NCBI GenBank assembly: GCA_035498015.1 | Contig: DATKAO010000149.1 | Location: 1-59,042 of the forward strand | Length of the DNA: 59,042 nt | Direction of reading: 5' to 3' | From: Myxococcota bacterium | GTDB lineage: Bacteria > Myxococcota_A > UBA9160 > SZUA-336 | Part shown: one piece after another, positions 27,565 through 45,476 of the stretch | How the letters are laid out: the number at the start of each line of letters is the position of its first letter | Numbering within the stretch: position 1 is the stretch's first letter | The notes under the pieces: generated by a model | Seen by the model: only the letters and a program-made list of their open reading frames with translations | The model's database searches: none | Told to the model about the DNA's origin: nothing | Made by a program: the position numbers and the translations under genes

Positions 27565-28581
27565 ATGGAACGCCTGCGCATCACCGAGCTTTTGGGCGAC
27601 GGCATCGGCCCGGAGCTCGCCGAGTCCGTGCATTCCGTCGCGAGCGCGTTGCCGCTCGCGGTCGAGTTCGTCCCGGTCGATCTCTCGCTCGAGGGCCGCA
27701 AGCGCGACCCCGACACCTACCCGCGCGCCGAGGCCTCGCTGCGAGACACCAAGCTCGGGCTGAAGTACCCGACGGTGACTGCAGAGGAGAGCCCGAACGC
27801 GGTGCTGCGCCGGCGCCTGCACTTCTCGGTGATCCACCGGCCGGTGCTGTCGATCCTGGGCATCTCGTCGAACTTCAAGCAGAACGTCGCGCTCGACATC
27901 GTGCGCGTGGCGGTGGGCGGCACCTACGACGACCCCGGCCAGCGCATCGGCGAGGACGTGGCGGTGTCACTGCGCATCGTGGAGCGCCGGCCGTGCACCG
28001 AGGCCGCGCGGTTCGCGTTCGAGTTCGCGCGCCGCTACGGGCTGTCGGTCACTTCGTCGTCGAAGCACACCATCCAGCGCGCGACCGACGGCTTCTTCGA
28101 GGCGATCGTGCGCGAGGTGGCGGCGGGCTACCCCGACGTGAAGCACCGCGTGGAGCTGTTCGACGCGCTGCTCGCCAAGATCATCCTGCGGCCCAACGAC
28201 TACCAGGTGGTGCTCGTGCTGAACGAGTACGGTGACTTCCTGTCGGACATGGCGTGCGGCCTGGTGGGGAGCCTCGGCACCGGCGCGAGCGGGAACTACT
28301 CGTTCACGCGGGCGGGCGAGATCGACGTGGCCATGTTCGACCCGGCGGGTGGCACCGCACCCGACATCGCGGGCCAGGGCATCGCCAATCCGACCGCCGC
28401 ACTCCTGGCGTTCGGCCTCTTGCTCGACCACGTGGGACGGATCGAGCACGGCAACGCGCTGCGCTCGGCGGTGCTGGGCGCGATCGCCGACGGCCGCTCG
28501 ACGCGCGACGTGGGCGGCCGGCTCGACACCCGCGCCTTCACGGCGGTGGTCGCCGACTCACTCGCCAAGGCGCAGAAGTAG
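27565..28581 (+). CDS. Isocitrate/isopropylmalate dehydrogenase family protein
   Basis: 338 residues. Beta-decarboxylating dehydrogenase fold: LGDGIGPEL at the N-terminus, SSSKHTIQRATDGFF (catalytic Lys), LNEYGDFLSDMACGLVGSLG (metal-binding Asp residues) and GTAPDIAGQGIANPTA (NAD-binding). It would oxidise and decarboxylate a 2-hydroxy dicarboxylate. Odd point: the substrate-binding RENTEG-type motif and its Arg cluster are replaced by VERRPCTEAARF and NVALDIVRVAV, so neither canonical LeuB nor Icd specificity can be assumed. The leuA gene lies 1.2 kb downstream on the same strand. An acetyltransferase gene follows after 3 bp. Confidence 0.8.
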   Translation: MERLRITELLGDGIGPELAESVHSVASALPLAVEFVPVDLSLEGRKRDPDTYPRAEASLRDTKLGLKYPTVTAEESPNAVLRRRLHFSVIHRPVLSILGISSNFKQNVALDIVRVAVGGTYDDPGQRIGEDVAVSLRIVERRPCTEAARFAFEFARRYGLSVTSSSKHTIQRATDGFFEAIVREVAAGYPDVKHRVELFDALLAKIILRPNDYQVVLVLNEYGDFLSDMACGLVGSLGTGASGNYSFTRAGEIDVAMFDPAGGTAPDIAGQGIANPTAALLAFGLLLDHVGRIEHGNALRSAVLGAIADGRSTRDVGGRLDTRAFTAVVADSLAKAQK

Positions 28582-28584
28582 CGC

Positions 28585-29538
28585 GTGCGCTTCCGCGACA
28601 TGGAGCGCGCGGACCGCGGCGCGGTGCTCGACCTGCTCGAGCACGCGTTCGGCATCCGCGACCTGTTCGAGCGCTACATGGACTTCGACCCCGAGTTCGC
28701 CTACGGCGACGTGCTGCTCGCGCTCGAGGGCGACGCGCCGGTCGCCTGCGTGCAGGTGTTCCAGAAGACGATCCGCCTGGCCGGGCAGCCGGTGCGGCTG
28801 GGCGGGATCGGCAGCGTGGCGACCCGCGCGAGTCAGCGCGGCAGCGGCCTGGCGACCGAGCTCTTGGAGCGCGCGCTCGAGCGCATGCGCGCGCGCGAGC
28901 TTTCGCTGTCACTCTTGTTCGCCGCGCCGGTTGCGCCGCTCTACGAGCGCCTGGGCTGGCGGCGCATTCCCGCGCCGCTCCTGCGACTCACGCGCGCGCG
29001 CGTCGGCGAGCCGCCCGACCCCGGCCGCGACTTCCAGCCCGCGGACCTCGCGCGCGTGAGCGCGCTCTACGACGTCTTCACCGCCGCGCTCTCCGGGCCC
29101 ACGCTGCGCGACGCGCGCTACTGGCGCGGCCAGCTCCGCACCGCCGGCACGCCCACCGAGACCTTCCGCCTGGCCCACAGCGTCGGTGAGCTCGCCGCCT
29201 ACGCCCGCAGCGCCAACTTCAACGGCCGCCAGCGAGTCATCGAGTACGCGAGAAGCCCCGAGGGCGCCGAGTCACTGGCCGACCTCCTCGCCTCCTCCAT
29301 CCCCCCCGACAAACCCACCTACGCCCCGTTCACGAACGACCCCGGCCTCGCCCGAGCCCTCGAAGCCCGAGGAGTCAGTCTGGCCCTGGCCGCCGACCCG
29401 AGCCCCATGTGGAAGGTCCTCGACACGGCCCGGCTCGCCCGCATCGCCGGCCTGCCCGGCAGCGCCAGCGACCAGGACCTGCTTCATTCACTCATCGAAC
29501 GGCCGAGAGCGACCTACTTCCCCTCCGACCGCTTCTGA
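28585..29538 (+). CDS. GNAT family acetyltransferase (Eis-like architecture)
   Basis: 317 residues starting with GTG 3 bp after the dehydrogenase stop, so co-transcribed. The N-terminal GNAT domain has RLGGIGSVATRASQRGSGLATELL (acetyl-CoA loop) and PLYERLGWRRI. A second domain follows (from ~150), as in Eis-like tandem GNAT proteins. Acceptor unknown. The stretch 29270-29480 is visibly richer in C-runs and codons such as CCC/CGA than the rest of the gene, a local codon-use change. Confidence 0.8.
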   Translation: MRFRDMERADRGAVLDLLEHAFGIRDLFERYMDFDPEFAYGDVLLALEGDAPVACVQVFQKTIRLAGQPVRLGGIGSVATRASQRGSGLATELLERALERMRARELSLSLLFAAPVAPLYERLGWRRIPAPLLRLTRARVGEPPDPGRDFQPADLARVSALYDVFTAALSGPTLRDARYWRGQLRTAGTPTETFRLAHSVGELAAYARSANFNGRQRVIEYARSPEGAESLADLLASSIPPDKPTYAPFTNDPGLARALEARGVSLALAADPSPMWKVLDTARLARIAGLPGSASDQDLLHSLIERPRATYFPSDRF

Positions 29539-29558
29539 CCCGGGCTCGCAGGTCCGAC

Positions 29559-29587
29559 TTGACCCAGCCCGAGGCGGCCCGTAGGCT
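29559..29587 (+). promoter_or_regulatory. Sigma-70-type promoter for leu leader and leuA
   Basis: TTGACC at 29559-29564 and TAGGCT at 29582-29587 are separated by 17 bp, a good housekeeping promoter. Transcription would start near 29594, only a few bases before the GTG of the leader peptide. This is the only place in the window where I could match both a -35 and a -10 at ideal spacing. Confidence 0.65.
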
Positions 29588-29596
29588 CAGGCGATC

Positions 29597-29677
29597 GTGA
29601 AACACTGGACCACCACCGCGAACGCCCTTTCCGGGCTCCTCCTTAGCGAGGCGGGTGGGGTCCGCCCAGCGCTCTAG
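29597..29677 (+). CDS. Leucine leader peptide (leuL-type) upstream of leuA
   Basis: A 26-codon frame: GTG start, Lys-His-Trp-Thr-Thr-Thr..., then Leu-Ser-Gly-Leu-Leu-Leu, ending at TAG 29675-29677. The control codons are CTT (29627), CTC, CTC, CTT (29636-29644), followed by a last CTC. CTT is rare in neighbouring genes, which prefer CTG/CTC, and slow decoding of it would sharpen the response to leucyl-tRNA shortage. The peptide precedes a hairpin-plus-T-run attenuator and leuA. The frame is too short to prove by codon statistics; the evidence is its Leu run, position and matching RNA structures. Confidence 0.72.
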   Translation: MKHWTTTANALSGLLLSEAGGVRPAL

Positions 29678-29733
29678 CCAGCGCCGGGTCACCAGCGGAC
29701 CTCTCCCGCCGTCGAGGCCGGAGAGGTTTTTTT
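29650..29733 (+). terminator. leuA transcription attenuator (terminator/antiterminator)
   Basis: Three mutually exclusive stems can be drawn. Segment 1:2 is GGCGG (29650-29654) with CCGCC (29662-29666). Segment 2:3, the antiterminator, is 29657-29665 (GGGGTCCGC) with 29695-29703 (GCGGACCTC), nine pairs including one G-U. Segment 3:4, the terminator, is CCTCTCC (29700-29706) with GGAGAGG (29720-29726), closed inside by GCC/GGC and followed by seven T at 29727-29733. A ribosome stalled on the Leu codons would mask segment 1 and free 2 to pair with 3. A ribosome reaching the stop would cover 2 and allow termination. Confidence 0.75.
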
Positions 29734-29793
29734 CTGCCCGGACGCCTCTTTCGGTCTCTCGCGGCGCGAGGTCCGGAAACCAAGGAGGCAGTC

Positions 29794-30951
29794 ATGTCGG
29801 AGAAAGTCGTCGTGTTCGACACGACGTTGCGCGATGGCGAGCAGGCGGCGGGCGTGTTCTTCTCGCGCGCGGCCAAGGTCGAGATCGCGGACCTGCTCGA
29901 CGCCATGCGCGTCGACGTGATCGAGGCGGGCTTCCCCGCGTCTTCGCCCGGGGAACACGCGTCGGTGTCGGCGGTCGCGGCGCACGTGAAGGGCGCCACG
30001 GTGTGCGCGCTCGCGCGCGCCATTCCCGCCGAGGTCGACGTCACCTGGCAGGCGATCCGCGCCGCGCGCGATCCGCGCGTGCACGTGTTCCTGTCGAGCT
30101 CGGAGATCCACCTGGCGCACCAGCTGCGGCGCGGCGCCGACGAGGTGGTCGAGATGGCGCGCGCGGCCGTGGCGCGCGCGCGCACGCACACCCGGAACGT
30201 GGAGTTCTCGTGCATGGACGCCACGCGCTCGAATCCCGAGTTCGTGGCGCGCGTCGTACGCACGGCGATCGCCGAGGGCGCGACCGCGATCAACCTGCCC
30301 GACACGGTCGGATTCGCGCGCCCGGACCAGGTGGCGGAGATGTTCCGCGGGCTGTTCGCGCGCGTGCCCGAGCTGGCGGGAGTCACCGCGAGCTTCCACG
30401 GCCAGGACGACCTGGGCATGGCCACCGCGAACTCGCTGGCCGCGATCGCGGCGGGCGCGCGCCAAGTCGAGCTGGCCGTGAACGGGCTGGGCGAGCGCGC
30501 CGGCAACACGGCGTTCGAGGAGGTGGTGATGGCGATCCGGGTTCACGGCGAGTCACTCGGCGTGGCGACCGGCGTCGACACGAAGGGCATCTGGCGCGTG
30601 TCGCAAGCGGTCGCGAGACACTCCGGCTTCGCGGTGCCGCCGAACAAGGCGATCGTGGGCAAGAACGCGTTCCGCCACGCCTCGGGCATCCATCAGGACG
30701 GCGTGCTGAAGCACCGGCAGACCTACGAGACGGTCGACCCCGCGGAGATCGGCCACCCGACCGGCAGCGAGATCGTGCTGGGCAAGCTGTCGGGGCGGGC
30801 CGGCTTCGCGGCCCGCGCGCGCGAGCTGGGCTTCGCGCTCGACGGGCCAGCGCTGGAGCGCGCGTTCGAGCGCTTCCAGCGCGTGGCCGACCAGCGCGGC
30901 GAGATCGGCGACCGCGACGTGATCGCGATCTGCGTGGGAGCGGCCGCTTGA
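29794..30951 (+). CDS. leuA: 2-isopropylmalate synthase without C-terminal regulatory domain
   Basis: 385 residues. The HMGL-like TIM barrel opens with VFDTTLRDGEQ, then EAGFPASSPGEH, CALARAI, VEFSCMDATRS, NLPDTVGFA, SFHGQDDLGMATANS and VNGLGERAGNT. The linker segment KAIVGKNAFRHASGIHQDGVLKHR matches LeuA. It condenses acetyl-CoA and 2-ketoisovalerate, the first leucine step. Full-length LeuA is ~500-520 residues; here the leucine-binding allosteric domain is absent, so feedback inhibition is not expected and control may rest on the upstream attenuator. A homocitrate-type synthase is the alternative, but sequence and leader favour LeuA. Strong AAGGAGG 5 nt before ATG. Confidence 0.85.
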   Translation: MSEKVVVFDTTLRDGEQAAGVFFSRAAKVEIADLLDAMRVDVIEAGFPASSPGEHASVSAVAAHVKGATVCALARAIPAEVDVTWQAIRAARDPRVHVFLSSSEIHLAHQLRRGADEVVEMARAAVARARTHTRNVEFSCMDATRSNPEFVARVVRTAIAEGATAINLPDTVGFARPDQVAEMFRGLFARVPELAGVTASFHGQDDLGMATANSLAAIAAGARQVELAVNGLGERAGNTAFEEVVMAIRVHGESLGVATGVDTKGIWRVSQAVARHSGFAVPPNKAIVGKNAFRHASGIHQDGVLKHRQTYETVDPAEIGHPTGSEIVLGKLSGRAGFAARARELGFALDGPALERAFERFQRVADQRGEIGDRDVIAICVGAAA

Positions 30952-43931: not shown

Positions 43932-45476
43932 ATGGCGCGCGGATCCCTGGTCCAGGTGATGGACACCACGTTGCGCGACGGCGAGCAGACGCCGAACGTG
44001 GCCTACGCTCCGTCCGAGAAGCTGCAGATCGCGCGGCTCCTGCTCGAGCAGGTGCGCGTCGACCGGCTCGAGATCGGGCAGGTGTTCGTGTCCGAAGGCG
44101 AAGCCGAGGCGGTGAAGCGCATCACCTCGTGGGCGCGCCGCGCGGGTCACTCGGAGCGGATCGAGATCTTCGGCCTCACCGACGGCAAGCGCTCGGTCGA
44201 CTGGATCGTCGAGCACGGCGGCGTGGCCATGAACCTGCTCACCAAGGGATCGCGCAAGCACTGCGAGCTGCAGCTGCGCAAGACGCCGGAGCTGCACTTC
44301 AAGGACATCGCCGAGACCGTGCGCTACGCGCGCCGGCGCAAGCTGATCGTGAACGTGTATCTCGAGGACTGGTCGCAGGGCGTGCGCGACAGCTTCGACT
44401 ACGTGTTCGGGCACATCGAGAACCTGGCCGGACTGGGCGTGCGCCGCGTGTATCTGCCCGACACGCTCGGCACCTTCACGCCCGACGACACGGCGCGCTA
44501 CGTCGAGCTCATGACGCGCACCTGGCCCGAGGTGCACTTCGAATTCCACGCGCACGGTGACTACGGGCTCGCGACCGCGAACTGCCTGGCCGCGGTGCGC
44601 GCGGGGGCGCGCGGCATCCACACCAGCGTGAACGGCATGGGCGAGCGCGCGGGCAACACGAAGCTCGCCGAAGTCGTGGCCTCGCTGCACGATCTCACTC
44701 CGTTCCGCACCGGGGTCGACGAGAGTCACCTGATCGCGATCTCGGAGCTGGTGGCGCGGCTCTCGGGCAAGACCGTGTCCGACAACGCGCCGGTCGTGGG
44801 CCGCGACGTGTTCACCCAGACCGCGGGCATCCACGCCGACGGCGACGCCAAGGCCGACCTGTACGCGAACCGGCTGCTGCCCGCGCGCTTCGGCCGGCGG
44901 CGGCGCTACGCGCTGGGCAAGATGTCGGGCAAGGCGTCGATCGAGCAGAACCTGCGCACGCTCGGCATCAAGCTGCCCGCCGAGCAGCGCGACCTGGTGC
45001 TGCGGCGCGTGGTCGAGCTCGCGGACAAGAAGCACTCGGTCACCGCCGAGGACCTGCCGCTGCTGATCGCCGACGTGTTGAAGACTCCGGGAGAGCAGCT
45101 CGTCCGAATCGAACGCTATGAGTCGCACTCGCAGAGCGACGGCCTGCCCTCCGCGGCGGTGTCGGTGCGCTACCGCGGCAAGACCGCGTCGGCCCGCGCG
45201 ACCGGCGACGGCGGTTACGACGCTTTCATGAAGGCGCTCGCCAAGGCGCTGCGCGGCTTCGGTCTGCGGCTCCCGCAGCTCGTCGACTACAAGGTGCGCA
45301 TCCCCCCCGGCGGAAAGACGGGGGCGCTGGTCGAGACCGTGATCTCGTGGCAGCTCAGTCCGCGCGCGCAGCCCTTCCACACGCTGGGCGTCGATTCGGA
45401 CCAGCTCGCCGCGGCGGTGATCGCGACCGAGAAGATGCTCAACCTGCTGGCGGCGCGGCGCACGGCACGACTTTGA
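43932..45476 (+). CDS. cimA: (R)-citramalate synthase, Leptospira-type
   Basis: 514 residues. HMGL barrel: VMDTTLRDGEQTPNVAYAPSEK, EIFGLTDGKRSVDWI, NLLTKGSRKHCE, YLEDWSQGVRDSFDYV, YLPDTLGTFTPDD, FEFHAHGDYGLATANC and SVNGMGERAGNT. Then FTQTAGIHADGD and YALGKMSGKASIEQNL, and a complete C-terminal regulatory domain with GGYDAFMKALAKAL and RIPPGGKTGALVET. The order and wording of these segments follow Leptospira CimA rather than LeuA. It makes citramalate from pyruvate and acetyl-CoA for threonine-independent isoleucine synthesis, normally inhibited by isoleucine. TAGCCT at 43920 lies 6 nt before the ATG (leaderless). Confidence 0.88.
   Translation: MARGSLVQVMDTTLRDGEQTPNVAYAPSEKLQIARLLLEQVRVDRLEIGQVFVSEGEAEAVKRITSWARRAGHSERIEIFGLTDGKRSVDWIVEHGGVAMNLLTKGSRKHCELQLRKTPELHFKDIAETVRYARRRKLIVNVYLEDWSQGVRDSFDYVFGHIENLAGLGVRRVYLPDTLGTFTPDDTARYVELMTRTWPEVHFEFHAHGDYGLATANCLAAVRAGARGIHTSVNGMGERAGNTKLAEVVASLHDLTPFRTGVDESHLIAISELVARLSGKTVSDNAPVVGRDVFTQTAGIHADGDAKADLYANRLLPARFGRRRRYALGKMSGKASIEQNLRTLGIKLPAEQRDLVLRRVVELADKKHSVTAEDLPLLIADVLKTPGEQLVRIERYESHSQSDGLPSAAVSVRYRGKTASARATGDGGYDAFMKALAKALRGFGLRLPQLVDYKVRIPPGGKTGALVETVISWQLSPRAQPFHTLGVDSDQLAAAVIATEKMLNLLAARRTARL

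Follow-up and report, generated by a model that had tools for sequence, protein, structure and literature searches.

A putative leucine attenuator upstream of a short 2-isopropylmalate synthase gene in an uncultured class of Myxococcota

INTRODUCTION

The DNA upstream of a leuA gene in a genome assembled from an uncultured myxococcotal bacterium raises the question of whether leucine biosynthesis in this lineage may be controlled by ribosome-mediated attenuation. The window, by which we mean the whole stretch of 59,042 nucleotides analyzed here, carries this region at positions 29559 to 29793. A preliminary description, made from the letters alone, had proposed a complete leucine attenuator there, with a promoter, a short open reading frame (ORF) containing leucine codons, alternative RNA stems, and a T tract, and direct reading of the sequence recovered every one of those elements at its reported place. 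We examined whether they recur in relatives, whether their helices covary, and which readings other than attenuation might account for them.

RESULTS

Promoter and leader ORF

All elements of the leader and its downstream gene lie on the forward strand. The -35 hexamer, TTGACC (29559 to 29564), is followed after a 17-nucleotide (nt) spacer by a weak -10 hexamer, TAGGCT (29582 to 29587). In an alignment, A2, of 60 leaders that precede 2-isopropylmalate synthase (IPMS) genes, TTGAC occupied the matching site in 58, and a spacer of 17 nt was dominant among the relatives. The leader ORF (29597 to 29677), encoding MKHWTTTANALSGLLLSEAGGVRPAL, starts with GTG at 29597 and runs for 26 codons to a TAG at 29675 to 29677. 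Transcription usually starts about 7 nt downstream of a -10 box, and since the GTG follows the box by only 9 nt, the leader mRNA of the window is probably leaderless. The start codons of the 58 A2 leaders with TTGAC and a -10-like hexamer (54 ATG, 4 GTG) lay 6 to 12 nt from the -10 box with a mode of 9, a spread kept tight in part by the start-calling script, which accepted starts 28 to 50 nt after the -35 box and favored ATG and a distance near 39; leaders inspected by eye agreed with the called starts. From these distances the relatives' mRNAs would be leaderless or nearly so, and the initial portrayal of an almost leaderless leader peptide thus fits them too. A simple promoter and terminator scan of the window flagged neither element, because the -10 box is weak and the terminator stem contains an internal mismatch.

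Leucine codons in the window leader are CTT at 29627, CTC at 29636 and 29639, CTT at 29642, and CTC at 29672, and the run CTC-CTC-CTT (29636 to 29644) supplies the control codons. The 58 leader peptides with a promoter and start codon contain a median of 7 leucines, a minimum of 4, and a mean of 26% leucine, the enrichment in codons for the regulated amino acid that an attenuator calls for. The last leucine codon before the antiterminator arm (29642 to 29644) is CTT in 59 of the 60 aligned leaders, compared with 3.9% of leucine codons in the downstream IPMS genes. Inspected copies that carry tryptophan codons instead, described below, do not retain the CTT, which hints that it is kept as a codon that is read and not for structure. 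A CCTGC/GCAGG hairpin across the leucine codons was inspected and discounted, as the conserved codons alone yield much of it.

Antiterminator and terminator

The antiterminator pairs a 5' arm, GGCGGGTGGGGTCCGC (29650 to 29665), with a 3' arm at 29695 to 29710, forming 15 standard pairs and one U.U. The preliminary description had found this helix but had credited it with only 9 of those pairs. It had likewise been right that one strand serves both the antiterminator and the terminator, although the shared segment extends over 29700 to 29710 and not merely to 29703. The terminator hairpin (29697 to 29729) has the core previously assigned, 29700 to 29706 with 29720 to 29726, together with an overlooked extension in which GCC (29708 to 29710) pairs with GGC (29716 to 29718); a T7 tract follows at 29727 to 29733. 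The two structures are mutually exclusive, as in an attenuator, with 29700 to 29710 paired in either. Computed folds also showed a small hairpin between the antiterminator arms (29669 to 29684) whose loop holds the stop codon, and in the full-length minimum-free-energy fold a possible protector stem forms between 29607 to 29620 and 29652 to 29663.

The T7 of the window is a canonical U tract, and its nearest relatives retain T6 to T8. At the 3' end of A2, most relatives have a degenerate tract, TTTCGTGTTT, and a stem lengthened by AAA/TTT and GCG/CGC pairs. Termination in relatives with such weak tracts may depend on helper factors or on another way of working.

Folding and covariation

Thermodynamic folding and a search for covariation had been suggested as checks on the proposal, and both gave supportive results. 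The RNA from 29594 to 29735 folded at -68.3 kcal/mol (z = -2.96, 200 shuffles), and both helices covaried in the 60 leaders. In comparisons with shuffles, which sequence relatedness inflates throughout, the antiterminator had 45 double-change cells against 30.1 +/- 5.3 and a score of 0.133 against 0.105 +/- 0.007, the latter exceeding all slid controls. Eight of its pairs had changed on both sides, while much of the helix was invariant and so gave no evidence either way. The terminator showed standard pairs in 98.6% of cells, with compensatory changes, and its double-change cells numbered 24, compared with 6.8 +/- 3.7 in shuffles, a count that leans toward this helix because the model to which A2 was fitted includes the terminator and leaves the antiterminator outside. 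In an unfitted alignment, A1, both helices surpassed shuffles in paired cells and in score.

Folding was also computed with a ribosome positioned on the leader. A ribosome whose A site holds the conserved CTT, its edge taken to lie 12 nt further on, would reach 4 nt into the antiterminator arm in all 60 leaders. Defining the antiterminator as a helix of at least 8 pairs, we found it in 55 of the 60 nascent folds in which the 3' arm of the terminator had not yet been made, and the stalling geometry proposed earlier for the leucine codons held up. The leader stop codon lies 7 to 31 nt from the start of the arm, and with the ribosome at that codon the terminator formed in 57 of 60 leaders, the other 3 having a stop too close for the test. 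The stall site is thus placed to free the antiterminator and the stop codon to block it, as attenuation demands.

The stalled nascent fold of the window, exposed from 29651, reached -38.1 kcal/mol at the antiterminator stage. At full length, even with a stalled ribosome, the terminator was the more stable (-44.4 versus -38.1 kcal/mol), and therefore the switch must be kinetic. A kinetic decision is likewise made in known attenuators. Ribosome-free nascent RNA of the window, extended to 29715, also favored the antiterminator, which leaves the untranslated state and the role of the protector stem at 29607 to 29620 uncertain.

Conservation of the leader

Among 60 genomes searched, of which 59 were relatives and one was the window's own, we identified 15 intact short leuA orthologues at 59% identity or more, including that of the window. 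Upstream of every one, the window's and the 14 others, were a leader ORF with a leucine run, a GGCGG arm, and a CTCCCGCC...GGCCGGAG-type hairpin. The preliminary description had staked its case on finding a leucine-rich frame and a terminator before orthologous leuA genes, and both were present at every intact short orthologue examined.

A covariance model, R1, built from 17 leaders matched 74 of the 91 genomes of the window's class and 39 of the 43 of good quality. Of 288 genomes from the phylum but outside the class, 18 gave matches, mostly weak, with strong ones in 2 genomes of one other family. That 14 orthologues and 74 of 91 class genomes repeat this leader with its codons, antiterminator, and terminator shows that it did not arise by chance; the element is real and lineage specific. 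In the window's genome R1 found a single copy, the next independent match having an E value of 0.04, and no leader was seen at full-length leuA loci, which served as controls. Weak matches before other genes (many of loci L112 to L129), which involved mainly the terminator, and matches on the strand opposite real ones, which are palindrome effects, were set aside.

Two loci outside the class, from another family of the phylum (L097 in genome G307 and L104 in G296) have a short IPMS gene with a diverged leucine leader, and a glycosyltransferase-like gene is next; this arrangement may be ancestral or transferred.

The downstream enzyme

The gene that follows, with a Shine-Dalgarno sequence AAGGAGG at 29782 to 29788, spans 29794 to 30951 and encodes a protein of 385 amino acids that is a short IPMS isozyme by its profiles and structure match, with a predicted activity to correspond. 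NCBIfam IPMS models matched residues 2 to 380 (E = 1e-153), below curated cutoffs derived from proteins of about 516 residues. Pfam identified HMGL-like and HCS_D2 domains, and the Pfam search found no LeuA_dimer (PF08502), the allosteric feedback domain of leucine-inhibited IPMS. The best solved relative is the IPMS 3rmj, to which the query aligns HGQ at the expected HxH metal motif. All 31 short sequences found by motif, 28 of them distinct, have HGQ in place of HxH, glutamine replacing the second metal-binding histidine; the short family carries SFHGQ(D/N)DLG.

The genome also encodes a full-length LeuA on contig 178, which is 48% identical to the short IPMS, keeps HCH, and contains LeuA_dimer. 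The preliminary assignment of the gene as leuA therefore stands as to IPMS, but this is not the sole leuA of the genome; it is a short isozyme that lacks the allosteric domain. Elsewhere in the window, positions 43950 to 45056 encode a homologue of CimA-like (R)-citramalate synthase, a further relative of the short IPMS, and two genes upstream of leuA (27565 to 28581) is a gene for an isocitrate/isopropylmalate dehydrogenase-like protein that scores far below every curated cutoff.

Among 90 model matches examined, 28 stood before short IPMS genes and 40 before IPMS genes of the LeuA_yeast/PRK03739 subfamily. Of the latter type, a tested form of 481 amino acids lacked LeuA_dimer and one of 596 amino acids retained it; genes under the leader do not, therefore, invariably lack the feedback domain. 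We considered an in-place exchange of enzymes under a fixed leader and rejected it, since the two IPMS types share no upstream neighbors (28 loci with enough flanking sequence); either the leader or the gene must have moved.

Copies with exchanged codons

In about six genomes, arms and a terminator of the same kind, with tryptophan codons near the arm, precede a gene for an MFS transporter. The encoded motifs are FEWTW, WTVWKWK, WTVWKCK, LW..IWK, SWWKR, DWCW, and possibly GWWKR. Tryptophan-coded copies lie upstream of the MFS gene at loci L151 to L155, L157, and L165, and others are L096, L098, L099, L105, L109, and L122; being few and related, they yield a descriptive count. In genome G016, a relative of the MFS gene adjoins a short leuA directly downstream. 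A further copy of the element, L110 (G006:C132:29483-29568, minus strand), has a Val/Ile-rich peptide, MSRQPGQRVLYMGLKPVITVVMTDGGEVRPA, and precedes a gene without identification.

The attenuator might be a portable cassette within the class, one that serves two IPMS subfamilies and was respecified from leucine to tryptophan, upstream of an MFS transporter gene, by codon exchange beside a fixed antiterminator arm, with the near-invariant CTT as the leucine-sensing codon. We consider the chances of this proposal to be evenly balanced.

DISCUSSION

A model for the leader and competing readings

The reading we favor, with a probability of roughly 0.9, is ribosome-mediated transcription attenuation with charged tRNA-Leu as the signal. 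RNA synthesis would begin about 2 to 3 nt upstream of the GTG, and the leader of the leaderless RNA would be translated by a ribosome coupled to the polymerase. If charged tRNA-Leu ran short, the ribosome would stall at CTC-CTC-CTT and leave 29650 to 29665 free to pair with 29695 to 29710 before the 3' arm of the terminator is made, allowing read-through into leuA. With ample leucine, the ribosome would instead reach the UAG at 29675 and cover the 5' arm of the antiterminator, the hairpin at 29697 to 29729 would form, and transcription would end at the T tract.

The most serious competitor, which we nonetheless regard as improbable, is an RNA element that works without codon-specific translation of the leader, whether bound by a protein, binding a ligand, or folding into a LEU-like pseudoknot, with the leucine codons incidental. 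Precedent comes from Streptomyces, where leuA leader mutations departed from the behavior expected of classical attenuation and the LEU element forms a pseudoknot (PMC1262725), and several relatives of the window lack a canonical U tract. Against such an element, the leader frame, placement of the start, leucine run, and position of the stop are all conserved even though peptide N termini and lengths vary, and upstream of MFS genes the copies combine retained RNA arms with tryptophan codons, which fits codon sensing.

Very little probability attaches to control of leuA translation instead of transcription termination; the relatives with TTTCGTGTTT tails lack a clean U tract, as that would allow, but in the window, where the computed folds covered RNA ending upstream of the leuA start region, the hairpin is followed by T7, with about 50 nt between its end and the Shine-Dalgarno sequence at 29782. 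Equally hard to credit is a plain intergenic terminator beside a chance small ORF, for while the upstream gene (28585 to 29538) is codirectional and 20 nt separate its end from the -35 box, the terminator sits downstream of a conserved promoter, and promoter, leucine ORF, and terminator recur before IPMS genes in 60 leaders whose upstream neighbors differ.

Relation to known leucine leaders

Attenuation as we propose it resembles that of the enterobacterial leuL leader before leuABCD (Leu_leader, Rfam RF00512) in its leucine-run peptide, alternative antiterminator and terminator stems, and control of IPMS, and the leu leader peptide of Escherichia coli has a similar GLLL core. The window leader differs in its leaderless start, its conserved CTT, the single IPMS isozyme gene that it precedes, and its lack of an Rfam match. 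At gathering scores, neither the window nor any of eight related loci matched an Rfam family, Leu_leader included, and at E values up to 10 the region from 29500 to 29900 returned unrelated weak matches and no leader family.

In Streptomyces lividans, leaderless peptides with leucine runs precede leuA and leuS (PMC8079986). Those peptides, leuL1 and leuL2, resemble the window leader in being leaderless and having 3 to 5 leucine codons, whereas leuL1, upstream of leuA, lacks a typical Rho-independent terminator (PMC8079986) and the leader described here has a hairpin followed by T7. The leuA region of Actinobacteria contains the LEU pseudoknot element, in which codon mutations gave ambiguous results; it shares with our leader a leucine-run ORF upstream of leuA but base pairs the leucine codons with the leuA Shine-Dalgarno box (PMC1262725), whereas the window has a classical antiterminator and terminator pair.

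The named relatives in the class are labeled Deltaproteobacteria or Myxococcales, and in the open-licence literature we found no description of a leucine leader for this lineage. The earlier suggestion that the leader may be undescribed is borne out to that extent, but not for leaderlessness, which is known in Streptomyces (PMC8079986). The kind of regulation is thus a known one, and the leader RNA family is new to Rfam.

Implications

Leucine attenuation, described mainly in gammaproteobacteria and actinobacteria, would extend to an uncultured class, for whose annotation the covariance model R1 can be used. The shared leader supports the short HxQ enzyme as one of the leucine pathway, and the tryptophan-coded copies are a natural setting in which to test how an attenuator changes its amino acid specificity. 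Regulation appears tied to the type of enzyme: in the window's genome, the isozyme under the putative attenuator is the one without the allosteric domain.
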